From Syntrophaceae bacterium (GTDB lineage Bacteria > Desulfobacterota > Syntrophia > Syntrophales > Smithellaceae): a stretch of DNA of 34,458 bases. This document shows, in pieces, positions 4,678 to 34,458 of this stretch. Numbering within the stretch: the first letter of the stretch is position 1; every line of letters starts with the position of its first letter. Where the stretch lies: the NCBI GenBank assembly GCA_016927935.1, contig JAFGLS010000090.1:1-34458 (forward strand), given 5' to 3'. The translations under genes and the position numbers were made by a program. Under the pieces are notes generated by a model. It ran no database searches, was not told the DNA's origin, and saw only the letters and a program-made list of their open reading frames with translations.

Positions 4678-4691
4678 TAAAAGAAATAAAA

Positions 4692-5561: not shown

Positions 5562-5563
5562 TT

Positions 5564-7848: not shown

Positions 7849-7868
7849 AGAACAAGGATTGATAAAAG

Positions 7869-9616: not shown

Positions 9617-9679
9617 ATTAAATATTGATTACTTATTGAAGTGTTTTTTATTTAAATTGTTTTCATATTCTGTATTTCG

Positions 9680-10657: not shown

Positions 10658-10669
10658 AGAAGTTTAATT

Positions 10670-11812: not shown

Positions 11813-11843
11813 CTATAAATGATAACTTGAAACATAAACTAAT

Positions 11844-12896: not shown

Positions 12897-12925
12897 ATTA
12901 ATCTCTTTCATAAGGACAGCAAAAA

Positions 12926-13858: not shown

Positions 13859-13870
13859 TTATAATGGTGT

Positions 13871-14311: not shown

Positions 14312-14344
14312 ACTGCAACACAGAACCATCTATTCAAAATTATA

Positions 14345-16390: not shown

Positions 16391-16409
16391 AAAGATAAAA
16401 TAATTGTTT

Positions 16410-17204: not shown

Positions 17205-17917
17205 TAATACCTTGTTACAATGAAGAAAAACGCCTGCCCATCAATGCTTTTTTAAATTATGTCAAAAGCAATAAAAATGTCAGATTTTTATTTGTAAATG
17301 ACGGGAGCAAGGACAACACAGCGGACGTATTAAAATATTTAAGAAACCAAAACGAATGCTTTTTAACACTCGATTTGCAGAAAAACAGTGGAAAGTCTGA
17401 AGCTGTAAGACAGGGAATGTTATATGCTGTGAAGAATTTAGATTTTGATTATATAGGTTTTTGGGATGCCGATTTATCCACGCCGCTGAATGAAATAGAA
17501 CCATTTATAGATTGTTTCCAAAAAAATAATTATCAAATTGTTATGGGTTGCAGATTGATGCGATTAGGAGCAAGTGTGAAAAGAAAAAAAATCAGACATT
17601 ATTTGGGACGTTTTTTTGCTACGGCAGCTTCAATAGTATTAAATTTGCCGGTATATGATACACAATGCGGCGCAAAATTGTATAAAGCAAATATTGTTTC
17701 ACTATTATTTGACAATCCGTTCATTAGTCGCTGGCTTTTCGATGTGGAATTATTAGCGCGCTACATAAAAATTTTCGGATTGGAGGACGCAATCAGAAAT
17801 ATATATGAATATCCACTCTCATCATGGCAGGATATTGCCGGTTCATCAATAAAGATAAAAGATTTTTTAAAGGCTCCTATAGAGTTATGGAAAATTAAAA
17901 GAAAATATTTAACGTAA
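17189..17917 (+). CDS. GT2 glycosyltransferase, ALG5/DPM-like
   Basis: Soluble GT-A transferase of 242 residues beginning TTIIIPCYNEEKRL, with VNDGSKDNT (37-45), the metal-binding DAD at 93-95 and QCGAKLY (159-165), a pattern typical of dolichyl/polyprenyl-phosphate glucose or mannose synthases. Unlike the GT2 at 12926 it lacks C-terminal membrane helices. It overlaps the previous methyltransferase gene by 16 nt, and no later start precedes the IIIPCYNEE strand, so the overlap is probably real. It is the second candidate source of polyprenyl-phosphate sugar in the locus and could feed GT-C enzymes such as the membrane protein at 14345 or the array at 25774-34458. Confidence 0.82.
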   Translation: MQTTIIIPCYNEEKRLPINAFLNYVKSNKNVRFLFVNDGSKDNTADVLKYLRNQNECFLTLDLQKNSGKSEAVRQGMLYAVKNLDFDYIGFWDADLSTPLNEIEPFIDCFQKNNYQIVMGCRLMRLGASVKRKKIRHYLGRFFATAASIVLNLPVYDTQCGAKLYKANIVSLLFDNPFISRWLFDVELLARYIKIFGLEDAIRNIYEYPLSSWQDIAGSSIKIKDFLKAPIELWKIKRKYLT

Positions 17918-18007
17918 ACCGCACAAATCAAGAAGCAAAAAATATTTTGCGTAATAAGTCCAAAAGTACAATAAAGGCAACCATTACATATATAGAATTA
18001 TTCCTAA

Positions 18008-19549
18008 ATGAAAAAAATCGCGGATAACCTTTTCCCTGAATGGCTTTATTTCTCATTTATTTTTACCAGAGGCATATTTCTTGTTAGTTTCGCCTCGTTC
18101 TTTTTGTTTTTCTTTTTTTACGAAGATTTTATTACTATTCTTGTAAATACATTAAAAATTCCATTTTCAATGGATTCTGTCTATATATCAATTATATTCT
18201 TCCAGTTTTTCAACTCTATTAGTGCACTTGTAATTCTGTTGTTTGTATCTACAGGGTATTATATTGTATTTTATATTGCATTTAAGGATAAACAAAATGC
18301 ATGGATTGACATTTTGTTTTTTACTTTTTTCAGCTTCATAATCTTCAACTATACTTTGACAAAATTAAATTTCTTATCAATATTTGTTTTATTAGGAATC
18401 TATTCGCTAATATACAAACTAAACAAACTTGATTTCAGCAATTTCACGAGGCATAAGAATGTTACTTTTTTTGCCATTCCTCTTTTAATTCCCTTCTTTT
18501 TTGAATTATTTCTTCCTTCATACGTAATTTTCTTTCTCAAGAATACAAAACATCCTCATTTGACAGCTAAAATATGGAATAACCTAGGTTATAAAATGTC
18601 CATGATTTTAGGGGCAAACATCCTGGCTTTTGTCAGTATCAATCTGATTTATCCTTCCTACCATCTGCCAAAAGAAGTCCAACAAATTGCACTTGGTGGA
18701 TTTTACAGTATGGAAATAGATGAATCTACAAAAAGACTGTTCGCCTGTAACATAAGTGATAATAATTTATATGTATTTGATTTGAATAATTTAGCTTCTC
18801 CATCCAAGATTGTAAAAATATTTACTTCAGAATTGGAACGTATAGGAATAAATGAAGAAAAAAGAGAATTTTATCACTTCAACAGGGGTAATAATAGATT
18901 ATTGATTTTCGACCTCGACAATTACAAACTCAAAAGAGCGTCTACATGCAAATTAAACGGATCAGGAAGCGCTAAAGTTTCTTTCGACAATAAATCGCAG
19001 ACAATTGTTATCAGTAGAGAGGATGATTACTTGTATATACTTAATATGGAAACACTATTACCGATAAAGAAACTGGAAATTAAAAAGATTGATTACATTG
19101 TCTTTGATATTAATACAAACATGTATATTGCATCAATTTTTCAGGACTCAGAAAACATATACCTTCTTCCCCCTCAAAAAGAAAAAGCCATTTTAAAAAT
19201 TCATGCAAAATCAAATCAATCAGAAATATCTGTATCAAACAAGAGGAAGGAATTATATGTTTGTTTCCCTTTTTTGAGCAAAATATTTGTTTACGATTTA
19301 AATGAACTAAAATTAAAACGCAAAATACCCACTGTGTTTGGTGCAAAGCATATCGCCTGTGATGATATAAATGACTTTATCATCGTGTCCAGCATTTGTT
19401 CAGGATTCGTTGATATTATAAATCTAAATAATGAAAAACACACAAAACAATTTGTAGGATACTACCTGCGGGAAATCTGTTTAAACAAGTCCACGAGAGA
19501 GGCTTTCATTTCTTCTTTTAAAAGCGGCATCTTTAAAATTAATTACTAG
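18008..19549 (+). CDS. Membrane protein with C-terminal beta-propeller-like domain, function unknown
   Basis: No family is recognised with confidence. Residues 1-230 hold about six hydrophobic helices, very rich in Phe. Residues about 230-513 form repeated short blocks of the type found in YncE/YVTN or WD-like propellers: SMEIDESTKRLFACN, YVFDLNN, GINEEKREFY, LIFDLDNYKL, YILNMETLLPI, IFVYDLNELKL, IDIINLNN. About six blades can be counted. The propeller would lie on one side of the membrane behind the last helix near residue 215. It ends the AT-rich part of the glycan locus, 90 bp after the GT2 gene, and converges on the PHA genes. A sensing, scaffolding or polymer-length role would be speculation. 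Confidence 0.6.
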   Translation: MKKIADNLFPEWLYFSFIFTRGIFLVSFASFFLFFFFYEDFITILVNTLKIPFSMDSVYISIIFFQFFNSISALVILLFVSTGYYIVFYIAFKDKQNAWIDILFFTFFSFIIFNYTLTKLNFLSIFVLLGIYSLIYKLNKLDFSNFTRHKNVTFFAIPLLIPFFFELFLPSYVIFFLKNTKHPHLTAKIWNNLGYKMSMILGANILAFVSINLIYPSYHLPKEVQQIALGGFYSMEIDESTKRLFACNISDNNLYVFDLNNLASPSKIVKIFTSELERIGINEEKREFYHFNRGNNRLLIFDLDNYKLKRASTCKLNGSGSAKVSFDNKSQTIVISREDDYLYILNMETLLPIKKLEIKKIDYIVFDINTNMYIASIFQDSENIYLLPPQKEKAILKIHAKSNQSEISVSNKRKELYVCFPFLSKIFVYDLNELKLKRKIPTVFGAKHIACDDINDFIIVSSICSGFVDIINLNNEKHTKQFVGYYLREICLNKSTREAFISSFKSGIFKINY

Positions 19550-20246: not shown

Positions 20247-21299
20247 TTAAAACCAGCATTTATGACTCCAGATGTTATCCTTCAAATCCTTGATATCTTC
20301 CTGCAACATCATGTACATGCTGGCATTGCTTATGGCCAATCCTCCCTGATAGGCAAGAGCAGTTACCAGCATAATTTCGTCTTCTTTAAATTCCCTTGGT
20401 TTGCTGCTATAAACATTAAGCACACCAATTACTTTATCTTTGGATCTTATAGGAACATAAAGCATGGAAACAATGCCCTCGGCTTCCTTTTCTTTTCTGT
20501 ATTGAATTCCCGGATCAGATAAAACATCTTTTATGTAAATAGTATTCCCTTTCAGAGCTTTAGCAATATTTTTATCCGCCGCAACCGGTCCTTTGTTGAG
20601 ATAATTATCGCTCAAACCGAAACTCGCTACTAATTTTACAGTTAGTGTTTCCTCGTCCAGCAATCTTACCGAAGCAGCCTTTAGATGCAGCTCCCTCACC
20701 AACTCCTTGGTCATTGCCTGGATAATTGTTTTCACATCAAGACTTGAAGACATACTCGCGGACAGATCAAGAAATTTTTTCAATTGATTGCGCAATTTTT
20801 TAATAAGATTGGCATTCTCAATCACAAAGCCTCCCTGTTCAGCTAGAATGGAAAGAAAGTCAATTTCCTCTTTGGAAAATTGCCGGATATTTTTGGTATA
20901 GAGGCTCAGAATACCTATCATTTTCCCCTTATCCATTACCGGCACGGAAAGAATTGATCCAATCCCTTCTTCTTTTTTTGCCTGATGATTCATCAGCCGC
21001 TTATCAGTTGTAGCATCTCTAAAGTACATATAGCCATCCTTCATCAGCTGAGGACTGATTTTGATAGCATGTGCCGGCCCCGCATGAACATACTTTTCAG
21101 AAAGCCCAACCTGGGCTACAGCGATATTCCGAATGGAATCTTCTGCATCCTCATCGGTCAAAAAAATGACGGCTGCTTTGGCTTTTAATGTTTCCACCGC
21201 CGTGGACACAATTAAATTCAGTATCTTATCCTGATCTTCGGTGGAACCCACTTCTTTGGTCAGTTTGCTCAAAGCCAGGAAATAACTTTCAGTTGACAT
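20247..21299 (-). CDS. Tandem GAF-domain protein
   Basis: The 350-residue protein consists of two GAF domains (about 20-165 and 185-335) and nothing else. The halves align with each other: VIFLTDED versus VRLLDEET, then IGSILSVPVMDKGKMIGIL versus VSMLYVPIRSKDKVIGVL, then FSKEEIDFLSILAEQGG versus FKEDEIMLVTALAYQGG. A possible coiled linker at about 160-185 joins them. GAF domains bind small ligands such as cyclic nucleotides, haem, 2-oxo acids or redox cofactors. There is no kinase, cyclase or DNA-binding output domain, so it must act through a partner. It lies 53 bp after phaC on the same strand, with RBS GGGAG, implying co-expression with PHA synthesis. The ligand is not predictable here. 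Confidence 0.82.
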   Translation of the reverse strand: MSTESYFLALSKLTKEVGSTEDQDKILNLIVSTAVETLKAKAAVIFLTDEDAEDSIRNIAVAQVGLSEKYVHAGPAHAIKISPQLMKDGYMYFRDATTDKRLMNHQAKKEEGIGSILSVPVMDKGKMIGILSLYTKNIRQFSKEEIDFLSILAEQGGFVIENANLIKKLRNQLKKFLDLSASMSSSLDVKTIIQAMTKELVRELHLKAASVRLLDEETLTVKLVASFGLSDNYLNKGPVAADKNIAKALKGNTIYIKDVLSDPGIQYRKEKEAEGIVSMLYVPIRSKDKVIGVLNVYSSKPREFKEDEIMLVTALAYQGGLAISNASMYMMLQEDIKDLKDNIWSHKCWF

Positions 21300-21352
21300 A
21301 TTTTTTTCTCCCTATTTTATAATGCGTCAGCAAATTTTGGATGAACAATATC

Positions 21353-22627
21353 TTATCCTTTCTCAATTCCACCTGAACTAATCGCTGCCGAGTCTGGCAA
21401 TTCCTTTTCAGAAGCATCAGTTACAGCAGACCCCTTTATATTCTCCGATGTTTTTTGGGAGACATTTGTGGACTGTTGTTTGATTCGTTGCCGACGTTTC
21501 TTAATCGGTCGTACAGGTGATTCTTTGACCGAGATAATATCTTCCTTATCTCGTTCTTTAAGCCACTGAACAATTTTCGGGGCGAACATTTTCTGAAATT
21601 TGGAACTGACATAAATACCGATATGTCCAGTTTCCAGACAGACATCTTCCGCATCATTGCTGCCTACTGCTTTGGTAAGCTGATTACATGCTTCCGGCGG
21701 CACCAAATGATCATATTCGCCGAAAAAATTCAAAAGAGGCATGGTCACTTTTTTTAAATCAACCCTTTTTCCACCCAAATACATTTTGCTTTGAATCAGC
21801 AGATTCTTCTGGTAGCCATCCTCCACAAACTGGCGAAATGTTTCTCCTGGAACATCAGGACTGTCAAAAATCCAGCGTTCCATCCGCACAAAGTTTTCCA
21901 CGAAATCTTTGTTGTCCATATTTTCCATGAAGCCGACGTATTTATCTATCATCAGACGCGCGGGATTAAGCAGGAGAAAGCCAAAATTCATAAAGTCACC
22001 GGGAATATTACCAAAAGTTCGAACCATCCGGTCAACATCAACATCTCTCATCCATACGTGCAGAAGCCCCTTGTCTGTGTCAAAACTCGACGGTGTAACG
22101 GTGGTAATGAGATTTTTTACCTTCTCCGGATGTAAAGCTGCATACATTACACAAAAGGTTCCACCCATGCATATTCCCATAAGATTAATTTTCGGAATGT
22201 TGTGTTTTTCGCGGATAAAATCAACTATGTTGTTCATGTAACCGTTAACATGATCATCAATGGTTTGAAACCTGTCTTTGCGCTTTGCATAGCCCCAATC
22301 CACCATATAAAGATCAATGCCACCCTCCAGAAATGTCCTGACAACGCTTCTATTTGGTTGTAAATCAAGCATGGTTTCCCGGTTAATTAACGCATATACC
22401 ACCAACAATGGAACTTTTAATTTATTTTCCGCATTCTCGTTGCGGAAGTAGTGCTTGACCTTAACCCGGTCTTCCTCATAGACTATTTCATATGGTGTCA
22501 TGGCAAGCTGAGTATCGAGCTGCCCTTGTAAGACTTCGGATGCTTTGGAAACACGCTGTTGTGCCTTTTCCGCATCTTCGGCCATTTTTTCCAGAATCAG
22601 GTCTATAGGAATTTTTGTTGAATTCAT
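21353..22627 (-). CDS. phaC: Class III polyhydroxyalkanoate synthase catalytic subunit
   Basis: Alpha/beta-hydrolase-fold synthase that polymerises (R)-3-hydroxyacyl-CoA. The lipase-box-like GICMGG gives catalytic C153, with D306 in GEYDHLVPP and H335 in LETGHIG. These correspond to C149/D302/H331 of the Allochromatium class III enzyme with a constant offset. The catalytic part of about 360 residues fits class III, and the PhaE partner is encoded just upstream, which confirms the class. The last 60 residues (about 363-424) are an extra low-complexity tail with a basic patch KKRRQRIK (376-383) followed by a Ser/Glu-rich stretch, absent from standard PhaC. The RBS AAGGGAA precedes the ATG. phaE lies 59 bp upstream and the GAF gene 53 bp downstream. 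Confidence 0.93.
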   Translation of the reverse strand: MNSTKIPIDLILEKMAEDAEKAQQRVSKASEVLQGQLDTQLAMTPYEIVYEEDRVKVKHYFRNENAENKLKVPLLVVYALINRETMLDLQPNRSVVRTFLEGGIDLYMVDWGYAKRKDRFQTIDDHVNGYMNNIVDFIREKHNIPKINLMGICMGGTFCVMYAALHPEKVKNLITTVTPSSFDTDKGLLHVWMRDVDVDRMVRTFGNIPGDFMNFGFLLLNPARLMIDKYVGFMENMDNKDFVENFVRMERWIFDSPDVPGETFRQFVEDGYQKNLLIQSKMYLGGKRVDLKKVTMPLLNFFGEYDHLVPPEACNQLTKAVGSNDAEDVCLETGHIGIYVSSKFQKMFAPKIVQWLKERDKEDIISVKESPVRPIKKRRQRIKQQSTNVSQKTSENIKGSAVTDASEKELPDSAAISSGGIEKG

Positions 22628-22686
22628 GAAAAAAGTTTCCCTTCTGAAAATATCTGATTATTTTTCGCCGGATCCAAAACTAACAA

Positions 22687-23598
22687 CTACTTTCCCGCAG
22701 CCATGGCGTTAGGAGAAATACCCAGCATTTTCTCCATTTTATTCACTCTTTTTTTCATCAGGTGAAATTCTTTATATAAATCGTCAATGTCTTTATTGGT
22801 AACAACAGGAAGCATCTGAAGATAATCCTGCAATGTTTCATTTCTTATAATTAAAAAATCTTCAAAATTTTTAAGCACTCGATGCAGGGCTTCTGTGTAA
22901 TCATTAGATTTAAAAAGAGTCATATAATGGCCTTCCAGAATTTTCAGCCATATGGCGTAATTTTCCTTTGTTGCCGTAGGAATATTGCCTTCTTCCGCCA
23001 TCTGCTGAAGTTTCTCCTGAAATACCTTGAAAGACCTCTCCATTGGTAAATAAAGGATGGAAAGAAATTCGGCCATTGTCGATTCAAAAATGTTGTGTTT
23101 GTTCAGCATTTCATTAAAACGTTCCTGATAAAAACGGGTAAGTCCCAACGGCGGAACTTTAAAATACTGCTGTATGTCACTTTCATAAACTTCTCTGAAA
23201 GCTTTAAAGATATCCTGATCCAGGTTTTCAAAATTATATGCTTCCGTGCGTTTACCGATTTTGCCGGCTTTTTCCAGTAAATGATTTTGTATCTGCAAAG
23301 CCGCATCAAAACCGGATTTGGCTATTTTCAGAAAAATTTCCGGAAAAGCGCTCACAGCATTAGATGCCGCCGATTCGAATTCCGGCTGTTTCATCATATT
23401 GGAAAATGATTTAAGCATATTTAAATTCGCATCGAGCTGCTGTGTAAAGCGTTTCTGCAAAGCGGATTGAGTATTAAGCGTTGTTTGTGAAGTGGACGGC
23501 ATTGTTTTGGCCACATTAAGCCACATATCAGACACCATCTGCAGCCAGGGAAAAATTGAAGATTCACTAATTTGATTTTTTTTCTCTTCCTCGGTCAT
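22687..23598 (-). CDS. phaE: Class III PHA synthase subunit PhaE
   Basis: Largely helical 303-residue protein with the PhaE pattern. It has an N-terminal segment with PWLQMVSDMWLNV, a middle with PPLGLTRFYQERFNEMLNKHNIF, and a C-terminal helical stretch that carries LEGHYMTLFKSNDYTEALHRVLKNFEDF and ends in a coiled-coil-like helix (about 262-295). PhaE is non-catalytic and activates PhaC by forming the PhaEC complex on the granule. The RBS GGGGGTG precedes the ATG. It is the first gene of the leftward phaE-phaC-GAF group and faces the PhaC-like gene at 23861 across a 262-bp AT-rich divergent spacer. Confidence 0.9.
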   Translation of the reverse strand: MTEEEKKNQISESSIFPWLQMVSDMWLNVAKTMPSTSQTTLNTQSALQKRFTQQLDANLNMLKSFSNMMKQPEFESAASNAVSAFPEIFLKIAKSGFDAALQIQNHLLEKAGKIGKRTEAYNFENLDQDIFKAFREVYESDIQQYFKVPPLGLTRFYQERFNEMLNKHNIFESTMAEFLSILYLPMERSFKVFQEKLQQMAEEGNIPTATKENYAIWLKILEGHYMTLFKSNDYTEALHRVLKNFEDFLIIRNETLQDYLQMLPVVTNKDIDDLYKEFHLMKKRVNKMEKMLGISPNAMAAGK

Positions 23599-23860
23599 TT
23601 ACACCCCCAACAGAAAACTATTGAAGAAAATGTTATTTAAATGTTAAAAAAACACAAAAAACAACAATTATTCAAAATTTATATTTTACCGGAATAACTT
23701 AGATAAATAACGGTTGCACCGGAATTATACTGTAACACAACTTATTTAAACTTTGCTTGTTTTTTAATATATTATGATGTATTTGTCAACTAAATTTGCC
23801 CCCTTGATAATAGGGTAAAAATATTAATATTGTGCCCCAATAAAATAAAGAGGTTAATTT
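23599..23860. promoter_or_regulatory. Divergent promoter region between phaE and the phaC-like gene
   Basis: Very AT-rich 262-bp spacer that must serve both directions. On the minus strand TTGACA (complement of 23784-23789) is followed by an A/T-rich stretch without a perfect -10 at standard spacing. On the plus strand TTGATA (23804-23809) precedes TAATAT (23825-23830) at a short 15-bp spacing. A clear RBS, AAGAGG, lies at 23848-23853 for the plus-strand gene. Promoter boxes are weak candidates only. Confidence 0.35.
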
Positions 23861-25744
23861 ATGTCCAATCAAAAAAATAATAAAATTACACCCGATGAAC
23901 TACTCAACGTGATAGATTTTTCCCCTGCCGATAATCTGGAGGGGTTTTCCTCTGTTGTGCCCTGGAAGAGTAAACTTGTCGGACAACAGATTAGAGGTCT
24001 CTTCAATTATCAGCAAATGATGGAAACGATAAAAAAAGATCCTTGGCTTTTCGGCCCTTTAACGATTGCTGCGTCCTGGCAAAGCGCCATACTGGATTCA
24101 ATGCTGAAACATGTGAAAGCCAGCGCGCGTTTGGCTGTCGGAGCTTCCAGGAATCCGGATGCAATTGCCGATATGAACGGCTGGATCTATAAAAGTTATT
24201 CCCGTCTCCTTTACACGTTAACCGGTTTTTTCATCAAAAATGGAAAATTCGACAGAGAAAAAACTGAGATGATTTGCACAACACCAAAGGGAAAAGAATA
24301 TTTGATAAACTACATGGATGAATTCGCTCAACTTGAACATCAATATAACAACATTGGTCTTTCCCGTCTCAAAGCGATGAAAGAGCTCTTAAAATGCCTG
24401 CTGGTTTTAATCACGGAAAAGCCTTTCGATATCGAACCTCTGCCTTTCGCCAAAACAAATCCGGACGGAACACTGAGAACTTCTTTTGAAGAATATCTAG
24501 CGGAAAATCGGAAACGTCTGGAAAATCTCTACGAAGCCAATGCTTTTGATATTAAAGAATTCTCTGAAAGAGCTACTCAGGGCAAAATCGGCTGTTCTCA
24601 CTATGAGTACGTTGAAGGATCATTAAATCACCGGGTAAAATTGCGTTATTATCCGCTACCCGAAGGTATCAAACCCAACGGCAAATTATTATTCATGGCA
24701 ACTCCACTGATCAATAAACCTGAACTTCTCGACCTGGCTAGCGGCAAGTCTGTTGTGGAAGCGATGCTCAAAAAAGGCTACATCATATACATGGTAGATC
24801 ATGGCGAACCGGGGTGGGAAGAAACCGAACTGGGGCTAGATTTTTACGGAAAGACGATTCCCGATTTTTATTTGGACATAGTTAAAAAGCGACATCCTGA
24901 CTGTGAAATATATGCATTGGCAATCTGCATGGGCGGTACTTTATTACTGCCGTATCTCGCCCGACGAGCGGAGGAACTTTTAGCCGCAGGCAAACCAATG
25001 GATATAAAGAAAATAGCCCTGTTGGCTTCGCCGGTAAAATTTGATGATGAAGAAAGTGGACATGCTCCTATACGCACACTTATTCGCCGTGACTATGACC
25101 CTTACCTGATGAAACAACTTTTCGGTGCGGTGAACATTCCGCCGCAGGTCATCGAAGCCGGAATGAATGAAATTCAACCTGGAGTTCAATACACAGTCGT
25201 TTTAGGTTTTTATGGACGCGCGGAAATGAAAGAATCTATCGCCGATTCGGCACCTTTTCTCTACTGGCTCACACACGGGACAAAATTTCCCATTAACGCC
25301 CATATTCAATGGATTCAGAATATTTTCATAGGCAATCAGATATGTGAGGGTAAATACTGCCTTCCTTCCTCCAATCCTAAATTTGACGGCAAGCCGGCCA
25401 ATATGTCTATTCTGAAAAAAGCAGGGGTTAGAATTTTTGATTATAAAGGCTCCCGTGACCCCATCGGCCCGCCGGGTTCCTGCGTAGCCGGAGAAATGTG
25501 GGGGATGGTAGACAAAGGAAATATCGGACTCACCACCGGCGGACTTAATCGTGTTATTGAAAAAAATATAGGCCACATTTTTGTCGTTAGCCGTAAGTTG
25601 CTTGCCGAGTTTCTCACTGCTGTCGAAGACTTTTATCAGGAAACTCCTGTTAATAAACCGACAATGCTTAGCGTGAAAGGTTCAGCTTCTCCAGACGTTG
25701 CCGGTAATGTTGTAGATATTAAGGAACTGCAGACAAAGAAATAA
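23861..25744 (+). CDS. PhaC-like protein (second PHA-synthase-type alpha/beta hydrolase)
   Basis: The 627-residue protein has an N-terminal helical region of about 240 residues, then an alpha/beta-hydrolase core. The nucleophile motif is AICMGG (C356; alanine replaces the usual first glycine), with D533 in GSRDPIGPPGSC and H572 in NIGHIF, so a full Cys-Asp-His triad is present. The Cys nucleophile and placement opposite phaE-phaC argue for a PHA synthase or closely related acyltransferase. The length and N-terminal extension recall class I/II PhaC, but the sequence is not a standard member. The RBS AAGAGG has good spacing. The TMTC-like array starts only 29 bp downstream and could be transcribed with it. 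Alternatives are a depolymerising or oligomer-transferring enzyme. Confidence 0.75.
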   Translation: MSNQKNNKITPDELLNVIDFSPADNLEGFSSVVPWKSKLVGQQIRGLFNYQQMMETIKKDPWLFGPLTIAASWQSAILDSMLKHVKASARLAVGASRNPDAIADMNGWIYKSYSRLLYTLTGFFIKNGKFDREKTEMICTTPKGKEYLINYMDEFAQLEHQYNNIGLSRLKAMKELLKCLLVLITEKPFDIEPLPFAKTNPDGTLRTSFEEYLAENRKRLENLYEANAFDIKEFSERATQGKIGCSHYEYVEGSLNHRVKLRYYPLPEGIKPNGKLLFMATPLINKPELLDLASGKSVVEAMLKKGYIIYMVDHGEPGWEETELGLDFYGKTIPDFYLDIVKKRHPDCEIYALAICMGGTLLLPYLARRAEELLAAGKPMDIKKIALLASPVKFDDEESGHAPIRTLIRRDYDPYLMKQLFGAVNIPPQVIEAGMNEIQPGVQYTVVLGFYGRAEMKESIADSAPFLYWLTHGTKFPINAHIQWIQNIFIGNQICEGKYCLPSSNPKFDGKPANMSILKKAGVRIFDYKGSRDPIGPPGSCVAGEMWGMVDKGNIGLTTGGLNRVIEKNIGHIFVVSRKLLAEFLTAVEDFYQETPVNKPTMLSVKGSASPDVAGNVVDIKELQTKK

Positions 25745-25773: not shown

Positions 25774-27357
25774 ATGTTGAATAAATCAGCTACTACAACT
25801 AAAACACAAAAGCTGATAGTTTATATAGTTCTAGCATTAGTCACATTCACCATCTACTGGCAGACTAATCATTTTGATTTCATAAATCTCGATGATAATA
25901 TTTACGTCGCTAAGAACAGTTATATCCGATCCGGGATGACACTTGAAGGAATCCGCTGGTCTTTTAGCACAACTTATGCCGATTTCTGGCATCCGCTGAC
26001 ATGGCTTTCTCTGATGGTTGATTATCAACTTTACGGTTTGAATGCCGGCGGCTATCATACAACAAATCTTATCCTACATATTTTAAGCACACTCCTGCTC
26101 TTCTTGCTCTTTTGCAGGATGACGAAAGAAATCTGGAAGAGTGCTTTTGTAGCTGCCTTTTTCGCCATTCATCCCCTTCACGTGGAATCGGTTGCGTGGA
26201 TATCTGAACGCAAAGATGTCTTAAGCGCTTTTTTTTGGATGTTAACATTATCTTCTTATGTCCATTATGTTGAGAAACCGTTATTAAAAAGATATCTGCT
26301 GGTTCTTTTTTTCTTTATGTTGGCCTTAATGAGCAAGCCCATGGTTGTAACTCTACCACTTATCTTTATTTTGCTCGATTACTGGCCACTTAAGCGTTTT
26401 AAGTTAAAGGAAGGTAATTTGATTTTATGGCAGTTGAAAGAAAAAATTACTTTTTTTGTTTTATCTGCGGCGTGTACAATCATTACAATTTACGCACAAC
26501 ACAGAACTTCCTTTAAAACAATCCCCATTAGTGACAGAATCGCCAATGCGTTTGTTTACTTTTTAACTTATCTGGAAAAAATATTCTGGCCTCATGATCT
26601 GTCCATTTTCTATCCTTTCCTAGAACATATTTCTTTTTGGCCGACATGGGGATCTTTTTCAACTATTCTTATAATTAGCGCTTTAGTTGTTGTAAACATA
26701 AAACGCTTGCCTTATCTCTTTGCAGGATGGTTTTGGTATGCGATAACAATCTTACCGGTTCTTGGAGTTACGTACACAGGTATTCACTGGATGCATGATA
26801 CCTATACCTATTTGCCTTCAATCGGAATTTCTGTTGGCATCGCCTGGGGAGTTCCGCATTTAATTAAAAATAAGATTATTCGCAAAAACGCTTTGTTGCC
26901 AATAGCAATAATTTCCCTTGTTTGCCTGGCAATTTTAAGCTGGAAACAATGTGAATACTGGAAAAACAGCATAGAGCTTTTCAGCCACTCTTTACGAGTA
27001 ACAAAAAAAAATTATCTTGCTTATGACCATAGAGGAATTGCTTATGGTCAAAATGGCCAATATCTGCCGGCTATTGATGACTTCACCAAAGCGATAGATT
27101 TGAAGCCTGATTATTATAAAGGGTTTAACAATCGAGGGGTTACTTATTTTATAACCGGTCAATATCAAATGGCTATCAAAGATTATAATGAAGCTATTAG
27201 TCTAAAACCGGATTATGCAAAAGCATATGACAATAGAGCAAATGTTTATCTAAATCAGAATAATATTGCGGCTGGCTGCAATGATGCGCAAAAAGCTTGC
27301 TTACTGGGAGAATGTTCCTCGCTTCAAACATTCAGGAGAAAAGGATTATGCTACTGA
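25774..27357 (+). CDS. TMTC-like GT-C membrane protein with TPRs, subfamily A copy 1
   Basis: The 527-residue protein has about 10-11 membrane helices followed by two full TPRs and a terminal half repeat (from about 424). The first non-cytoplasmic loop has the acidic pair D40/D41 in NLDDNIYV, as in GT-C transferases. Then come FWHPLTWL (71-78) and HPLHVESVAWISERKDVLSAFFW (133-155), the conserved core of the TMTC/DUF1736 family. Eukaryotic TMTCs O-mannosylate proteins from dolichyl-phosphate mannose; the bacterial function is not established. The C-terminus shows C-x6-C-x4-C-x11-C. Where the other copies read MADR[YH]xYLPS, this one reads MHDTYTYLPS (340-349) and so lacks the conserved arginine. 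No clear RBS precedes the ATG. It is 29 bp after the PhaC-like gene. Confidence 0.8.
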   Translation: MLNKSATTTKTQKLIVYIVLALVTFTIYWQTNHFDFINLDDNIYVAKNSYIRSGMTLEGIRWSFSTTYADFWHPLTWLSLMVDYQLYGLNAGGYHTTNLILHILSTLLLFLLFCRMTKEIWKSAFVAAFFAIHPLHVESVAWISERKDVLSAFFWMLTLSSYVHYVEKPLLKRYLLVLFFFMLALMSKPMVVTLPLIFILLDYWPLKRFKLKEGNLILWQLKEKITFFVLSAACTIITIYAQHRTSFKTIPISDRIANAFVYFLTYLEKIFWPHDLSIFYPFLEHISFWPTWGSFSTILIISALVVVNIKRLPYLFAGWFWYAITILPVLGVTYTGIHWMHDTYTYLPSIGISVGIAWGVPHLIKNKIIRKNALLPIAIISLVCLAILSWKQCEYWKNSIELFSHSLRVTKKNYLAYDHRGIAYGQNGQYLPAIDDFTKAIDLKPDYYKGFNNRGVTYFITGQYQMAIKDYNEAISLKPDYAKAYDNRANVYLNQNNIAAGCNDAQKACLLGECSSLQTFRRKGLCY

Positions 27358-27421
27358 TTTTTATTTTCTTCAGTCGTGAAATTGTTATAAATTTATTTAA
27401 AGAAGAAGTTATAAAAAATTT

Positions 27422-28999
27422 ATGAAGAAAAAATACACTTGTCTTGTCATCATTCTTCTGATTGTTCTGGCCTGCCTGGCTTTGGGACGGATTGCCGGCA
27501 ATAATTTCATAAATTATGATGATAATAAATATATTACAGAAAATAACTTCATTCAGTACGGCATCAATAAAGAATCCGTTAAATGGGCTTTTACGACTAC
27601 ATATTTCAGCTATTGGCATCCTCTTACATGGATTTCTCACATGCTGGATTGGAGTATCTTCGGTGCAAACCCCTCCGGTCACCATATTGCAGGCTTGCTT
27701 CTGCATATCTCCGCTGTAGTTTTTCTTTTTCTTTTTCTGAATAAAGCAACAGGAGATATATGGTCTTCGGCTTTTGCCACTGCTTTTTTCGCCATTCATC
27801 CCCTGCGCGTGGAATCAGTAGCATGGGCGTCTGATAGAAAAGATGTTTTAAGCATGTTTTTCGCAATGACGTGCTTTTATACTTACGCTTTCTACGCCAA
27901 ATCACCAAAATTAACCAGATATCTGCTTTGTCTAATATTGTTTTCTCTGGCTTTAATGTCCAAACCCACGATGGTGACCTTACCATTTGTTCTTATGCTT
28001 CTGGATTACTGGCCACTGAAACGGTGGCTGGCAGAAGGCAGAAATAATCTTGCCGGTAAACTTATTTGGGAAAAGATTCCTTTTATCTGCCTGAGTATTG
28101 CAGTATGTTTTATTACTTTCTGGGCGCAAAACAAAGATGAACAGCTCGCTTCGATAGAATACCTATCACTTTTCAATCGTGTCGGTAATTCGCTTGTCTC
28201 TTATACTCTTTATCTGGGGAAAACATTCTGGCCTGCCAATTTGGCAGTATTTTATCCGTTCAATTTATCCCTTTCTCTATGGAAAATTTTTATTTCCGGT
28301 ATCTTTCTCACCGTGATCACCATATTCGTCTTTTACTACATAAGGAAAATGCCCTTTTTATTTGTTGGCTGGCTAACGTATCTGGGAACATTAATACCCG
28401 TGATTGGATTTATTCAATCAGGAGGTCAATCAATGGCTGACCGTTATACTTATCTGCCTTCCATCGGAGTTACATTTATACTTGCCTGGGGAATTCCTTC
28501 TCTGCTGAAAACTGAAAACATTCGTAAAAAAATCTTACTGCCGGCAACAATTGCTATTATTACAGTCATGGCATTTTTAACATGGCAGCAATGCGGTTAT
28601 TGGAGAGACAGCTTAAATCTTTTCAGCCACGCGTTAAGAGTAACACAAAACAACTATCTGGCGCATAACAGCAGGGGAATTGCTTATGGTGAATTAAGTC
28701 AGTATCAAAAAGCTATTGATGATTTTAACAAGGCAATTGGTTTAAAACCTGATTATTTTAAGGCATATAATAACAGAGGTTTTGCCTACTTTAAACTGGG
28801 ACATAATAAAAATGCCATCAGGGACTATAATGAAGCAATACTCCTGAAACCTGACTATGCCAAAGCTTACAATAACAGAGGATATATTTATTTAATTCAG
28901 GGCAACAGCATTGGGGGCTGCAAAGATGCGCAGAAAGCCTGCGCATTGGGAGTTTGTGAGACAATAAAAGAGGCTAAATTAAAAGGATACTGTAAATGA
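27422..28999 (+). CDS. TMTC-like GT-C membrane protein with TPRs, subfamily B copy 1
   Basis: The 525-residue protein has the same architecture as its upstream neighbour but the B-type sequence: FGRIAGN/LGRIAGN-type end of helix one, NYDDNKYITENN, TYWHPLTWISHMLDW-like loop (here SYWHPLTW), HPLRVESVAWASDRKDVLSMFF, and MADRYTYLPSIG at 338-349. Two full TPRs and a terminal half repeat end in the shared C-x6-C-x4-C-x11-C tail. Its TPRs closely resemble those of the A copy just upstream (RGIAYG, KAIDDFNKAI against TKAI, KPDY). The predicted role is a periplasm-facing transfer of a sugar from a polyprenyl-phosphate donor, by family analogy only. It is spaced 64 bp from copy A1. Confidence 0.8.
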   Translation: MKKKYTCLVIILLIVLACLALGRIAGNNFINYDDNKYITENNFIQYGINKESVKWAFTTTYFSYWHPLTWISHMLDWSIFGANPSGHHIAGLLLHISAVVFLFLFLNKATGDIWSSAFATAFFAIHPLRVESVAWASDRKDVLSMFFAMTCFYTYAFYAKSPKLTRYLLCLILFSLALMSKPTMVTLPFVLMLLDYWPLKRWLAEGRNNLAGKLIWEKIPFICLSIAVCFITFWAQNKDEQLASIEYLSLFNRVGNSLVSYTLYLGKTFWPANLAVFYPFNLSLSLWKIFISGIFLTVITIFVFYYIRKMPFLFVGWLTYLGTLIPVIGFIQSGGQSMADRYTYLPSIGVTFILAWGIPSLLKTENIRKKILLPATIAIITVMAFLTWQQCGYWRDSLNLFSHALRVTQNNYLAHNSRGIAYGELSQYQKAIDDFNKAIGLKPDYFKAYNNRGFAYFKLGHNKNAIRDYNEAILLKPDYAKAYNNRGYIYLIQGNSIGGCKDAQKACALGVCETIKEAKLKGYCK

Positions 29000-29003
29000 A
29001 CAA

Positions 29004-29023
29004 CCCCGCCACAAGCAGCGGGG
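29004..29023 (+). other. GC-rich hairpin after B copy 1
   Basis: CCCCGC (29004-29009) pairs with GCGGGG (29018-29023) across an 8-nt loop, just after the stop of the upstream gene. No run of T follows, so it is not a standard intrinsic terminator. CCCCGCC (29004-29010) could instead pair with GGCGGGG at 29050-29056, so two structures are mutually exclusive. Confidence 0.45.
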
Positions 29024-29149
29024 TATCCAAATGAACTTGCGTCCCAAGGGGCGGGGAATTAAACCCACATTTATCCCGCTCGGCCTATAGTGACCCCATG
29101 GTGCCCTTCAGGGTATTTAGGTTATTCGCCTCGGGGATAATTCGACCAT

Positions 29150-29181
29150 CAAATTTCAGCGCACTCCGTTTCTGAAATTTG
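29150..29181. repeat. Perfect 10-bp inverted repeat
   Basis: CAAATTTCAG (29150-29159) and CTGAAATTTG (29172-29181) are perfect complements with a 12-nt loop. This could be an operator, the end of a small repeat element or an RNA hairpin. No protein is known to bind it from this sequence. Confidence 0.5.
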
Positions 29182-29229
29182 GGTCTCATTAATTTATATT
29201 TATACTGATTGCCAATATTTTACTTTTAT

Positions 29230-29266
29230 GTAAACAGATGACTCTAAAAATTAGTCGTCTGTTAAC
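29230..29266 (+). promoter_or_regulatory. Leader hairpin just upstream of A copy 2
   Basis: GTAAACAGATGACT (29230-29243) and AGTCGTCTGTTAAC (29253-29266) form a 14-bp stem with one mismatch and one G-U pair and a 9-nt loop. The stem ends 11 nt before the ATG at 29278, so it would crowd the ribosome site if transcribed. A regulatory role is inferred from position only. Confidence 0.4.
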
Positions 29267-29277
29267 GAGAACAGATT

Positions 29278-30999
29278 ATGTCAGATCAACAAATCATAAG
29301 CCAAAGCAAACAAAAGATTATCATTTATATACTCCTGGCAATTGTCACGCTCGCTGTTTTCTGGCAGGTAAACAAGTTCGATTTCGTTAATTTTGATGAT
29401 AATCTTTATGTTTCAGAAAACAGTATCATTCAATCAGGAATAACAACGGAAGGAATTCACTGGGCATTCAGCACTACTTATCTTGATTTTTGGCATCCTT
29501 TAACATGGCTCTCATATATGCTGGATTATTGCCTTAACGATCTGAATGCCGGTAGTTACCATCTGACTAATCTTATACTGCATATTTTAAGCGCATTGCT
29601 GCTTTTCTGGCTTTTTAATCGCATGACCGGTGTTGTCTGGCGTAGTGCGTTTGTCGCAGCATTTTTCGCACTTCATCCATTCCATGTAGAATCGGTTGCT
29701 TGGATTTCTGAAAGAAAAGATGTCTTAAGCGCCTTCTTCTGGATGATAACGTTGTGTATCTATGTCTATTACACGGAAAAACCGACTATAATAAGATATT
29801 TTCCGGTTATTTTTTCTTTTATTCTAGCTCTGATGAGCAAATCCATAGTTGTAACTCTGCCTGTTATCATGATTCTTCTGGATTATTGGCCACTAAAACG
29901 TCTTCAATCAAAAAAAACCAAAGATAATCTGACGGAAATCTCTCTGAAAAAGGTTTTTTTCAGGTCATTGTGGGAGAAAATACCTCTATTAATTTTTTCA
30001 ATAATTTTTGTCATTATTACAGTATATGCTAAGTATAAGCCTTCCGAATCATCAATAGAACATCTTTCCTTGAGTTCGCGAATCGCAAACACACCCGTTT
30101 CCTTAATTACTTATCTAGAAAAAACTTTCTGGCCTCATCACATGGCTATTTTTTATCCCTTCTTAGATCAAATTCAATTCTGGAATGTACTGGGGTCCTC
30201 CTTACTAATTCTTGTTATAAGCGCTGCTGTTATTGCAATGGCAAAACGCTTCCCATATTTCTTTGTTGGATGGTTCTGGTATATAATAACTATTTTGCCA
30301 GTTATCGGAATTATCCAAATAGGTAATTTTGCGATGGCGGACCGATATCATTATCTCCCCTCCATTGGAATTGGTATTATCCTGGCTTGGGGAATACCCT
30401 TTTTATTCAAGAACGAATTTGCTCGTAAAAAGATTTTACTCCCCGCAGCTCTAGCATTTCTTGCGGTTTTAGCATGCTTATCGTGGAAACAATGTACCTA
30501 TTGGAAAAACAACAAAGTTCTCTGGAGTCATGCCCTTAAGGTGACAAAAAATAATTACATGGCGCATAATAACCTTGCCTCTGCATTACTGGAAAAAGGA
30601 GAAACTCAAAAAGCCATTTATCATTATGAAAAGGCAATCAGCATAAATAATTATGCCGCAGCCTATTACAACATGGGAATTATTTATTACCGCCTTAGCC
30701 AATATGAGCAATCTATCATAAACTTCCGCAACGCAACACATGCAGATCCGGATTATTTTGCGGCTTACTATAATCTCGGGATCGTGTATAGTTCTATCGG
30801 GCAGTTTCAGCTTGCAATAAAAAACTATAATGAAGCTATCCGAATTATGCCAACTCTTGCCGACGCTTATAATAACAAAGCTTATATTTATTTAAATACG
30901 GGAAATAACATTTCCGGATGCAGTAATGCTTTTAAAGCCTGCAAACTGGGAAATTGCAAAACGCTTATCTGGGCTAATAACAACAGACTTTGCAAGTAA
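29278..30999 (+). CDS. TMTC-like GT-C membrane protein with TPRs, subfamily A copy 2
   Basis: The 573-residue A-type copy has YILLAIVTLAVFWQVNKFDFVNFDDNLYV at its start (split here by loop one), FWHPLTWLSYMLDY, HPFHVESVAWISERKDVLSAFFW and MADRYHYLPSIG (353-364). Between helices a basic insertion rich in Lys (about 208-225) is longer than in A1 and A3. Three full TPRs and a half repeat follow, ending in the shared four-Cys tail. The first TPR (NNLASALLEKG) resembles that of the next gene (SNLATALLAEG) rather than A1. Family knowledge supports a polyprenyl-phosphate-sugar-dependent transferase fold; the acceptor is unknown. It lies behind the unusually long 278-bp spacer and may have separate expression from the first two copies. 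Confidence 0.8.
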   Translation: MSDQQIISQSKQKIIIYILLAIVTLAVFWQVNKFDFVNFDDNLYVSENSIIQSGITTEGIHWAFSTTYLDFWHPLTWLSYMLDYCLNDLNAGSYHLTNLILHILSALLLFWLFNRMTGVVWRSAFVAAFFALHPFHVESVAWISERKDVLSAFFWMITLCIYVYYTEKPTIIRYFPVIFSFILALMSKSIVVTLPVIMILLDYWPLKRLQSKKTKDNLTEISLKKVFFRSLWEKIPLLIFSIIFVIITVYAKYKPSESSIEHLSLSSRIANTPVSLITYLEKTFWPHHMAIFYPFLDQIQFWNVLGSSLLILVISAAVIAMAKRFPYFFVGWFWYIITILPVIGIIQIGNFAMADRYHYLPSIGIGIILAWGIPFLFKNEFARKKILLPAALAFLAVLACLSWKQCTYWKNNKVLWSHALKVTKNNYMAHNNLASALLEKGETQKAIYHYEKAISINNYAAAYYNMGIIYYRLSQYEQSIINFRNATHADPDYFAAYYNLGIVYSSIGQFQLAIKNYNEAIRIMPTLADAYNNKAYIYLNTGNNISGCSNAFKACKLGNCKTLIWANNNRLCK

Positions 31000-31056
31000 A
31001 CCAACTCAGCCATGACTGACTATTTTTGAACAAAATAATTTCTATAATCTAAAACT

Positions 31057-32952
31057 ATGATGAAAAGAAAATATACCTATCTAATAGTAATACTTTTAAT
31101 CATTGTTTCTTTTATCGCCTTTGGCCGGATAGCAGGCAATGATTTCATTAATAGCGATGACGACCAATATATCACGGAGAATAATCACATTAAATCAGGC
31201 CTTAATGAGGAAAGCATCAAATGGGCGTTTACAACTATACATTTTACATATTGGCATCCGCTTACCTGGCTCTCTCATATGCTCGATTGGAGCCTGTTCG
31301 GAACAGATGCTTCAAGTCATCATCTTGTAAGTTTGTTTTTACATATTGGGGCTGTTTTATTTTTATTTCTTTTTTTGAAAAAGGCCACAAACAATATTTT
31401 GCCTTCTTTTTTTGCAGCGGCTTTGTTTGCCTTGCACCCCCTTAGAGTTGAATCAGTTGCCTGGGCTACAGAAAGAAAAGATGTTTTAAGCATGTTCTTC
31501 GGTATGACAACCCTGTATATTTACGTTTTTTATACTAAGAAGCAAAACTTGCCCCTTTATATTCTCACTTTGATATTTTTCATATTTGGACTTATGTCCA
31601 AACCAATAATGGTTACACTTCCTTTTGTTCTCCTGCTTATTGATTACTGGCCACTCGAACGCTGGCCCAAAAAAATACATCAAGCAAATATTAAAGTTGT
31701 TCGCAGAATTATTTTAGAAAAACTTCCCTTTATTTTTCTAACAATTTTGCTGAGCATTGTAACTTTTTCATCCCAAAATATAAACGACTTGGTTATTTCC
31801 AATGAGCAACTTCCTCTTATTACACGTATTGTCAATGCGATTATTTCTTACATTGCTTATTTAGAAAAATTTTTTTGGCCAATAAACCTGGCGGTTTTTT
31901 ACCCCTATCCAGACTTCTTCATGCCTCAGCAAATAATATCTTTTCTTTTCATTTTGACCGGCATAACCATTACCGTTATTTATTTCTCTAAAAAATACCC
32001 CTTTTTATTCACAGGCTGGCTCTGGTATTTGGGAACTTTTATTCCAATGATAGGTCTTGTTCAGGTGGGTGCTCAGGCAATGGCTGATCGTCACACTTAT
32101 CTGCCCTCTATCGGCATTGCCATTATAGTTGCTTGGGGTATTCCGTCTATTATTGAAAATCAGAAACTGCGCAGAAAAATTTTATCACCGGCAGCTATTA
32201 TTTTTATTACATTAATGTTAATTTTAACGTGGAAACAATGCGGTTACTGGAAAAACAGTATCACTTTATTCAGTCATGCTTTGCAGGTAACCAAAAACAA
32301 CCATCTGGCGCATAGCAATCTTGCCACGGCTCTTCTCGCAGAAGGTAGAAAAGAAGAGGCTATTAATAATTATAGACAAGCTATTCTTATAAAACCAAAT
32401 TCGGCATTACCTTATAACATGCTGGGAAACGCTTACACCAAACTTGGCTGGTATGAATTGGCTATTCAGCAGTATAATCATGCTATCCGTTTGAATCCGA
32501 CTTATGAAAATGCTTTTAACAATAGAGGAACCGCATATTCCTCACTTAAACAAACGGAAATTGCCATTAAGGATTTCAATTATGCAATCTATATAAAGCC
32601 CGATTATGCTGACGCTTACTACAACAGAGGAACTGTTTATATGGAATTAGGGCAATATCAAAAAGCCGTTCAGGATTTCAGCGAAGCCATCCGTATAAAA
32701 CCGGATTACATTTCTGCATATTATAACAGAGCAATAGTTTATTCCAAACTGCGCCGGTATCAATCAGCCATCGAGGATTACAGCCAGATAATACGTTGGA
32801 GACCCGATTATGCTGTCGCTTACAATAATAGGGCTGCTATATATTTGAATCTGGGTAATAATGAACTCGGCTGTCAGGACGCACGAAAAGCATGTGAATT
32901 TGGCACTTGTAAGATATTGGCAATAGTCGAAAGAAACGGAATTTGTCGTTGA
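31057..32952 (+). CDS. TMTC-like GT-C membrane protein with TPRs, subfamily B copy 2
   Basis: The 631-residue B-type copy is the longest in the array. The membrane part has AFGRIAGNDFINSDDDQYITENN, TYWHPLTWLSHMLDW, HPLRVESVAWATERKDVLSMFF and MADRHTYLPSIG (342-353). It carries five full TPRs plus a terminal half repeat, against two in B1, so the repeat domain has expanded. The fourth TPR (YYNRGTVYMELGQYQKAVQ, DNA at 32617-32697) is about 88 percent identical in DNA to a TPR in the following A copy. The C-terminus has the C-x6-C-x4-C-x11-C pattern. It is 57 bp from A2. ATGATG gives two adjacent possible starts. Confidence 0.8.
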   Translation: MMKRKYTYLIVILLIIVSFIAFGRIAGNDFINSDDDQYITENNHIKSGLNEESIKWAFTTIHFTYWHPLTWLSHMLDWSLFGTDASSHHLVSLFLHIGAVLFLFLFLKKATNNILPSFFAAALFALHPLRVESVAWATERKDVLSMFFGMTTLYIYVFYTKKQNLPLYILTLIFFIFGLMSKPIMVTLPFVLLLIDYWPLERWPKKIHQANIKVVRRIILEKLPFIFLTILLSIVTFSSQNINDLVISNEQLPLITRIVNAIISYIAYLEKFFWPINLAVFYPYPDFFMPQQIISFLFILTGITITVIYFSKKYPFLFTGWLWYLGTFIPMIGLVQVGAQAMADRHTYLPSIGIAIIVAWGIPSIIENQKLRRKILSPAAIIFITLMLILTWKQCGYWKNSITLFSHALQVTKNNHLAHSNLATALLAEGRKEEAINNYRQAILIKPNSALPYNMLGNAYTKLGWYELAIQQYNHAIRLNPTYENAFNNRGTAYSSLKQTEIAIKDFNYAIYIKPDYADAYYNRGTVYMELGQYQKAVQDFSEAIRIKPDYISAYYNRAIVYSKLRRYQSAIEDYSQIIRWRPDYAVAYNNRAAIYLNLGNNELGCQDARKACEFGTCKILAIVERNGICR

Positions 32953-33021
32953 TTCGTGATTATTGCTAATTATAAACTAAAAAATTTTTACATTGATCAA
33001 ACGAAAAATGTTTAAATCACC

Positions 33022-34458
33022 ATGAAAGAGAAAATTAGTTTCGGCTCGAAAAGAAAAATCCTAACCGTTTATATCGCCTTAATAATCGTTACTCTTGCCG
33101 CTTATTGGCAGGTCAATGAATTTGAGTTCGTCAATATTGACGATCCGGTATACATCATAGAAAATTATCACATACATTCAGGAATCTCACTGGAAGGACT
33201 TCGCTGGGCATTTAGCATTCAACATGCTGCATTTTGGCATCCTCTAACGTGGCTTTTTTTAATGTTTGATTATCAAATCTACGGCCTTGATGCCGGTGGA
33301 TTTCATCTGACCAACCTTATTCTGCATGTCCTGAGCACTTTACTATTGTTCTGCCTTTTCCACCGTATGACACAAACTATCTGGAAAAGTGCTTTTGTTG
33401 CTGCTTTCTTTGCACTCCACCCTTTGCATGTGGAATCGGTAGCATGGGTTACTGAACGCAAAGACGTTCTGAGTGCTTTTTTCTGGATGCTGACTTTATA
33501 TCTTTATGTTTATTACACGGAAAAACCTGTTATAAAAAGGTATTTACTTGTTCTTCTTTGCTTTATCTTAGGACTTATGAGCAAGTCAATGCTCGTCACT
33601 CTACCTGTTATCATGATTTTTCTGGATTACTGGCCGCTAAAACGTTTTCAATTACATAAGGGCAATCTGATTTTATGGCAATTACAGGAAAAAATATTTT
33701 TCTTTATTCTTTCAGCCATTTTTTCGATTATAACGCTTAACGCGCAGAAAGGGCTTTCCATAGATTATCCCATTACCCCTTTGAATTTACGTATCTTAAA
33801 TGCTCTTATCTCTTTTGTATGTTATATAAAAAAACTTTTTCTGCCTCATGATATGACTTTTTTCTATCCTTTTTTGAATAGATATCCTCTGGGGCAAATC
33901 TTAGGATATGCTCTGATAATTATAATCATCAGCATTTTAGTGATTATAATGATAAAACGTTTACCCTATCTCTTTACGGGATGGATGTGGTACACAATAT
34001 CCATTGCTCCTGTCATCGGAATAATTCAGTTTAGTTCCCAAGCAATGGCTGATCGTTATATTTACATCCCCTCCATTGGCATTTCCATTATGCTCGCATG
34101 GGGTGTGCCAATGCTTTTCAAAAAAGAAAACATGCGTAGAAAAATTTTATTCCCTACAACAGTAGCCTTGTTGATAATCTTTTCTTTTTTGACTTGGAAG
34201 CAATGTGGTTACTGGAAAAACAGCATTGAACTGCTTAATCATGCTTTGCATATAAGAAAGGATGTTTATATTGTGCATGACTGTTTAGGTGTTGCACTTT
34301 TTGCTGAAGGTAAAAATAAAGAAGCCATCGATCATTTTAATCAAGCAATACTATTACACCCTGAATATCATAATGCCTACTACAACAGAGGTAGTGTTTA
34401 CCTTGAATCAGGGCAATATCAAAAAGCCATTCAAGACTTCAGCGAAGCTATCCGTATA
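33022..34458 (+). CDS. TMTC-like GT-C membrane protein with TPRs, subfamily A copy 3 (cut by window end)
   Basis: From the ATG at 33022 the frame stays open for 479 codons to the last base. The N-terminus reads AYWQVNEFEFVNIDDPVYI, followed by FWHPLTWLFLMFDY, HPLHVESVAWVTERKDVLSAFFW and MADRYIYIPSIG (342-353), so it is clearly A-type. The loop GNLILWQL near residue 215 is shared with A1 and absent from A2. Two TPRs are visible before the cut; the second is nearly the same as the fourth TPR of the preceding B copy. The C-terminal end, including any four-Cys tail, is outside the window. It is spaced 69 bp from B2 with no strong RBS. Confidence 0.8.
   Translation, partial: MKEKISFGSKRKILTVYIALIIVTLAAYWQVNEFEFVNIDDPVYIIENYHIHSGISLEGLRWAFSIQHAAFWHPLTWLFLMFDYQIYGLDAGGFHLTNLILHVLSTLLLFCLFHRMTQTIWKSAFVAAFFALHPLHVESVAWVTERKDVLSAFFWMLTLYLYVYYTEKPVIKRYLLVLLCFILGLMSKSMLVTLPVIMIFLDYWPLKRFQLHKGNLILWQLQEKIFFFILSAIFSIITLNAQKGLSIDYPITPLNLRILNALISFVCYIKKLFLPHDMTFFYPFLNRYPLGQILGYALIIIIISILVIIMIKRLPYLFTGWMWYTISIAPVIGIIQFSSQAMADRYIYIPSIGISIMLAWGVPMLFKKENMRRKILFPTTVALLIIFSFLTWKQCGYWKNSIELLNHALHIRKDVYIVHDCLGVALFAEGKNKEAIDHFNQAILLHPEYHNAYYNRGSVYLESGQYQKAIQDFSEAIRI
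34378..34458 (+). repeat. TPR-coding DNA shared with the preceding gene
   Basis: These 81 bases align without gaps to 32617-32697 in the B-type gene upstream, with 71 identical positions by my hand alignment, including the 18-nt identical stretch GGGCAATATCAAAAAGCC. Most differences are at third codon positions. Confidence 0.7.

Follow-up and report, generated by a model that had tools for sequence, protein, structure and literature searches.

Animal TMTC1-4 are O-mannosyltransferases of the glycosyltransferase C (GT-C)/PMT clan, in which an N-terminal membrane domain with an aspartate pair (DD) in its first loop is followed by C-terminal tetratricopeptide repeats (TPRs). Passages of PMC7801869 describe this architecture, align the DD pair with the active site of established sugar transferases and note full-length prokaryotic homologues, one of them deltaproteobacterial. 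In Pseudomonas, part of PMC11841053 describes the TfpO/TfpW cassettes, where a glycosyltransferase gene follows the pilin gene pilA beyond an intrinsic terminator. Here we analyze a contig of 34,458 nucleotides from a Syntrophaceae bacterium (assembly GCA_016927935.1, JAFGLS010000090.1; hereafter the window), in which five consecutive open reading frames (ORFs) in tandem on the + strand, at 25774-34458, encode TMTC-like proteins of two types in the order A-B-A-B-A. The array is best explained as a single locus within a lineage-specific expansion of membrane-bound GT-C glycosyltransferases whose TPR domains are periplasmic. Relatives of its genes in this order of bacteria lie directly beside pilA, so the most likely activity of the family would be sugar transfer to pilin and, by the amplified copies, to other surface proteins. 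To our knowledge, bacterial TMTC-like proteins are common and have no assigned role.

The array family has the N-terminal membrane domain, first-loop DD pair and C-terminal TPR repeats of TMTC1-4. It differs in being bacterial, massively multiplied, provided with a four-cysteine tail and linked to pilA in relatives, and no DUF1736 match was listed for the five array proteins (E<=0.01) or for 22 family membrane domains (E<=1). As in the TfpO/TfpW cassettes, relatives of the array genes stand just after pilA, beyond an intrinsic terminator, although the terminator is not specific to these loci. The likeness lies in gene layout; the array family combines a TPR domain with a TMTC-like membrane domain, has many paralogs per genome and has no pilin neighbor in the window or for most copies in the genus. 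With PMT/ArnT-type GT-C enzymes the family shares the acidic pair of the first loop and PMT_2 matches, found in 13 of the 22 membrane domains, whereas its TPR domain, and a membrane profile that matches no Protein Data Bank (PDB) chain sequence, set it apart.

Architecture and subfamilies of the array proteins

Genes 1 (type A, 527 aa; 25774..27357), 2 (type B, 525 aa; 27422..28999), 3 (type A, 573 aa; 29278..30999), 4 (type B, 631 aa; 31057..32952) and 5 (type A; 33022..34458), all on the + strand, were each identified by ORF call, alignment and position in the A or B clade of our trees. Because the contig (C133) stops exactly at 34458, where the frame of gene 5 is still open, this gene lacks its C-terminus and the array, of at least five genes, is possibly longer. 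A sequence-only reading of the window had described five tandem genes of a single GT-C/TPR architecture, in alternating order and with unit lengths of about 3.5 and 3.7 kb. Each of these points was borne out: all five proteins align across the whole membrane domain (~400 residues) and then continue into TPR repeats, the order is A-B-A-B-A and the start-to-start units measure 3504 and 3744 bp. By simple arithmetic, three A and two B genes would alternate strictly by chance in 1 of 10 orders.

Pfam recognized TPR repeats in all five proteins. It listed PMT_2 for four of them, of which gene 5 exceeded the curated cut-off and genes 1, 2 and 4 fell below it; gene 3 was not listed. In the alignment, every protein keeps the DD pair, located in the loop that follows membrane helix 1 (D40-D41 of gene 1, 25891..25896; gene 2, 27518..27523; gene 3, 29395..29400; gene 4, 31156..31161; gene 5, 33139..33144; all + strand). 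By analogy with TMTC, as passages of PMC7801869 describe it, this would be the catalytic pair of the first periplasmic loop. Across the family, the first aspartate is present in 67/70 A and 42/42 B sequences and the second in 70/70 A and 40/42 B sequences, counting those B sequences that have a residue there. AlphaFold2 models of gene 1 (mean predicted local distance difference test score, pLDDT, 93.1; 91 related sequences used) and gene 2 (mean pLDDT 91.8; 69 related sequences) are confident, and in both the helices of a membrane domain come first and those of the TPRs after them. The helix list of the gene 1 model could be read as giving eleven membrane helices, the N-terminus inside and the TPR part outside, and a loop placed similarly to that of DUF1736 (TM7-TM8, transmembrane helices 7 and 8) could be read from it as well.

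We fetched 100 loci, found family ORFs in them with a profile and built trees. An 85-row IQ-TREE, whose bootstrap had not settled, recovered A (42 rows) with support of 100/99 and B (28 rows) with 90/95, and a 137-row FastTree placed A (70 rows, 0.656) and B (43 rows, 0.773) inside a joint clade at 0.999. The distinction of two types drawn from the window alone therefore holds among homologs from related genomes, where A and B copies do form two clades, and we take A and B to be two ancient subfamilies. The motifs proposed as diagnostic fared less uniformly. They fit the window genes and never occurred in the opposite type or in 24 outgroup members; they do not define the subfamilies, however, as the A motifs are found in 35/70 and 27/70 A sequences and the B motifs in 26/43, 12/43 and 15/43 B sequences, and so appear typical of the window rather than of A and B. 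Positions that tell the two types apart were identified in the alignment. Gene 1 has its best match outside the array, on contig C108 (60%, against 57% for genes 3 and 5). Among named records, the nearest come mostly from metagenome assemblies of Smithella, Syntrophaceae and deltaproteobacteria; L055, a contig assigned to Verrucomicrobiota, gave a 51% match, possibly through a binning error or transfer.

The membrane domains and the TPR tails behave differently. Each membrane domain had its nearest relative in other genomes within its own type (103/103), whereas this was true of 75/103 tails, with 53.4 expected by composition. Among 29 neighbor pairs in which both genes have a cysteine tail, tails of the 18 A-B pairs were more similar than those of random A-B pairs from the same genome (0.526 versus 0.472, p 0.0002), while their membrane domains showed no clear difference (0.439 versus 0.430, p 0.07). 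In the 11 homotypic pairs, tails were no more similar than random (p 0.32), and membrane domains showed no clear effect (p 0.16). A-B neighbors share TPR tails, while membrane domains keep their type. The tail closes with a four-cysteine pattern; together with the last TPR it lies at 27199..27354 in gene 1, and the four-cysteine tails of genes 2, 3 and 4 were aligned at 28841..28996, 30841..30996 and 32794..32949 (all + strand). The pattern occurs in 62/64 A and 40/42 B proteins, in 1/23 outgroup paralogs and in 1/42 pilA-locus relatives; the tail profile was found in 35/108 genomes of the class, with at least 10 copies mainly in the Smithella-like genus. The cysteines would presumably form a disulfide-bonded cap in the periplasm. 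We also observed stand-alone proteins of ~200 residues (lengths by open frame) that have a four-cysteine TPR tail and lack the membrane domain, for example at G000:C165:64962-65114.

Relatives of the array genes beside pilA

A finding stronger than the pattern of the array came from outside the window. Clustering the neighbors of family genes brought up type IV pilin, and a pilin motif scan then placed pilins next to family genes both in the genome of the window and in relatives. We scanned the locus of the best match to the organism's own major pilin with the family profile in each of 67 genomes. One locus (G009) had no pilin ORF and seven came from genomes without a family member, none of which, as expected, showed one near pilA, leaving 59. 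Of the 31 genomes in our first pilin search, four (G006, G011, G012 and G026) were not included; another 40 were added from the top of a 94-genome list of pilin matches, so the sample is not random. In 34 of the 59 genomes, the best pilA match has a family member no more than 1.5 kb away, against 0.57 expected under uniform placement, an expectation for which the family counts per genome come partly from scoring the best <=17 candidates and are thus at-least values. On the same strand and at most 400 bp downstream of pilA, a family member was found in 24/59 genomes. Nine family codes are represented. A Desulfobacterales contig (L096) carries a pilin followed by three family genes.

In a tree that included the pilA-locus genes, A and B (0.744 together) fall within a clade of 77 rows (0.978), the rest of which comes mainly from pilA loci. 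A second, distant type of family gene, found chiefly next to pilA, forms its own 12-row group (e.g., L161 6604-8517 and L280 6504-8369). In the genome of the window, a type A gene stands beside 2 of 10 N-methyl pilin-type genes. Its pilA locus (L138, on C108, 8799-18636) comprises a pilin, a divergently oriented type A gene, a PMT-family protein, a fusion of a GT2 glycosyltransferase with a methyltransferase and a B12-binding radical SAM protein. Among open-licence papers, we found none that connects TMTC-like proteins to pilin or to Smithella.

Expansion and turnover at a fixed site

The gene 1 membrane domain has 26 matches at E<=1e-30 in its own genome, where family copies are scattered over many contigs, and between 0 and 29 such matches in 16 other genomes of the genus. 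The array itself varies at one syntenic site. Following the PHA (polyhydroxyalkanoate)-synthase-like gene, five genomes carry A-B-A-B-A (the window), A-B, A, A-B and A-gap-A-A-B-A, respectively. Grouping genes 1, 3 and 5 as a single clade was rejected by the approximately unbiased (AU) test (p 0.00107), and these genes are thus old paralogs and not recent copies from one pair; a clade of genes 2 and 4 was not rejected (p 0.37). The array is best seen as the outcome of birth and death of old, unlike paralogs at a fixed site. Broken family copies exist, for example in G016 at L168. DNA stretches of >=80% identity over >=80 bp link only four gene pairs in the genome of the window, one of them a contig overlap, and we rejected genome-wide homogenization of the TPR parts at the DNA level. 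The end of contig C30 and the start of C174 (G000) break inside family genes and share 87 identical bases, so the assembly likely splits copies.

The gene directly upstream of the array (23861..25744, + strand) encodes a PHA-synthase-like alpha/beta hydrolase, identified by synteny and by Pfam matches below curated cut-offs, and ends 30 bp before gene 1. It closes a PHA-synthase-like block at 20247-25744, made up of a GAF protein, a PhaC-like hydrolase, PHA_synth_III_E and this gene. Further upstream, 278-19549 holds a sugar and surface-polysaccharide cluster with nucleotide-sugar enzymes, NeuB, methyltransferases and two GT2 proteins (Pfam), and within it a 681-residue ORF at 14345-16390 without a Pfam match at 0.001.

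Proposed function and alternatives

We consider it fairly probable, from sequence relationships and gene neighborhoods, that the array proteins are periplasmic GT-C glycosyltransferases descended from, or sister to, pilin glycosyltransferases and that they decorate pili or other surface proteins. Several observations weigh against this proposal. The pilin motif scan found no pilin gene in the window, and for that reason the acceptor of the array copies is only a guess. In 25 of the 59 genomes with a family member, none lies within 1.5 kb of the tested pilA; the genus members G004, G005, G007 and G008 all have family genes and none near it, and in several genus members the neighbor is divergent from pilA rather than downstream. 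A strong terminator follows pilA in 25/25 cases with a downstream family member but also in 34/40 cases without one, and we therefore rejected the terminator as a special feature of these cassettes. In favor of the proposal, pilins with a family neighbor contain more Ser/Thr beyond residue 50 than those without one (0.30 versus 0.26, p 0.0004, n=34 versus 32), although this comparison ignores kinship. A Foldseek fold search of the PDB returned TPR proteins only among the 50 matches listed, and the whole-protein profile likewise returned only TPR chains among the 60 listed matches to PDB sequences. The membrane-domain profile had no match to PDB sequences at E<=10. As the PDB lends no support, the GT-C assignment draws on weak matches to PMT_2, the DD motif and reasoning from topology and architecture.

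The sequence-only reading, noting strict alternation and both types kept in pairs, had suggested that A and B form a heteromer or carry out a two-step transfer and that the pair, not the single gene, was duplicated, an account that we regard as improbable. A does come first at the syntenic site in all five genomes, two of which carry A-B besides the window, and 24 of 40 adjacent pairs are mixed (14 A-B and 10 B-A); the other 16, however, are A-A (9) or B-B (7), and the mixed share is not above that of label shuffles, either within genomes (21.3 expected, p 0.23) or over all A/B genes of a genome (mean 19.6, p 0.10). Two B-B tandems lie in the genome of the window (C6 and C234). The 40 pairs are those with clear labels among 53 adjacent family-ORF pairs, omitting broken pieces at L168, L196 and L197, from an uneven sample of 10 genomes. 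Six (G000, G003, G007, G008, G015 and G016) entered through the family matches listed for sampling, which are the best-scoring ones and make counts from them at-least values, and four (G002, G009, G010 and G013) through chosen loci only. When A/B pairs were sought elsewhere, relatives with one type unpaired were found, which speaks against pairing: among 108 intact A/B genes from genomes of the genus, 56 are in tandems and 47 (32 A and 15 B) are solitary, with >=400 bp on both sides, a figure for intact genes only, whereas an earlier count of genes not in tandem had included some broken pieces. A and B partner distances correlate weakly over all 23 A-B neighbor pairs (r 0.25, p 0.004), a result to be expected from arrays that are orthologous between related species; within genomes, no correlation was seen (r 0.05, 21 comparisons). 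The shuffles, the AU test on genes 1, 3 and 5, the partner distances and the solitary genes leave pair duplication unsupported, and the A/B pair finds no support as a functional unit either. Behind pilA in G018, G021, G037 and G041 (L274, L276, L323 and L336), the next genes belong to two dissimilar family clades, whose order is the same in all four; two-step work is conceivable there, and these loci are a better two-step candidate than A/B.

Many GT-C enzymes work on lipids or polysaccharides, and the window has its sugar and polysaccharide cluster upstream, so the copies might glycosylate a surface polysaccharide or lipid, in the manner of O-antigen side-chain or lipid A enzymes, and not protein. 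The PHA-synthase block stands between that cluster and the array, however, the copies are scattered over many contigs, relatives are linked to pilA and the C-terminal TPR domains fit protein binding, and we judge a polysaccharide or lipid acceptor to be quite unlikely. Alternatively, recombination or antigenic variation, with pilus-specific phages as the driving force, could draw on the extra copies as a reservoir, without each copy having its own job. Tail sharing between neighbors, variation at one site, a range of 0 to 29 copies in the genus and broken copies such as that in G016 would all be in keeping with such a reservoir, as would the protection of Pseudomonas from pilus phages by glycosylated pilin, described in part of PMC11841053. 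The membrane domains, on the other hand, are old, well kept and not homogenized, only three gene pairs in the genome of the window reaching >=80% over >=80 bp besides the contig overlap, and a role purely as a reservoir seems to us unlikely.

Returning to glycosylation of pili or other surface proteins, we suggest that the GT-C enzyme would take a sugar from a polyprenyl-phosphate carrier and, with the DD pair of its first periplasmic loop serving as catalytic site, attach it to Ser/Thr of an exported protein that the periplasmic TPR domain holds in place. Pilin would be the ancestral acceptor, and amplified copies may modify pilin at additional sites, add further sugars to it or have other surface proteins as acceptors. 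Differences between the A and B membrane domains might set donor or acceptor, while the TPR part and cysteine tail, which neighbors exchange, would bind the acceptor. A and B would each function as single genes, with no obligate pairing, in an array that grew and shrank at its fixed site beside the PHA-synthase-like gene. Homology, clades, copy number, array turnover, tail sharing and linkage to pilA are thus observed directly in the sequences, and activity, sugar, acceptor and the role of the cysteines are inferred from them.

A bolder proposal, which we hold tentatively and at slightly less than an even chance, is that TMTC-like GT-C/TPR proteins are an unrecognized class of type IV pilin glycosyltransferase, found in pilA-terminator-TMTC cassettes across the order, and that the Smithella-like genus amplified them to as many as ~30 copies with exchangeable, cysteine-capped TPR modules. 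These would give combinatorial sugar coats on pili and other surface proteins, perhaps in response to selection by pilus phages. The pilA linkage points to a first specific substrate for experiments, and in relatives that have only one pilA cassette, one pilin and one enzyme make up a small testable system. If true, the proposal would link the O-mannosyltransferases of animals with pilin glycosylation in bacteria and would bear on the pili of syntrophic bacteria.

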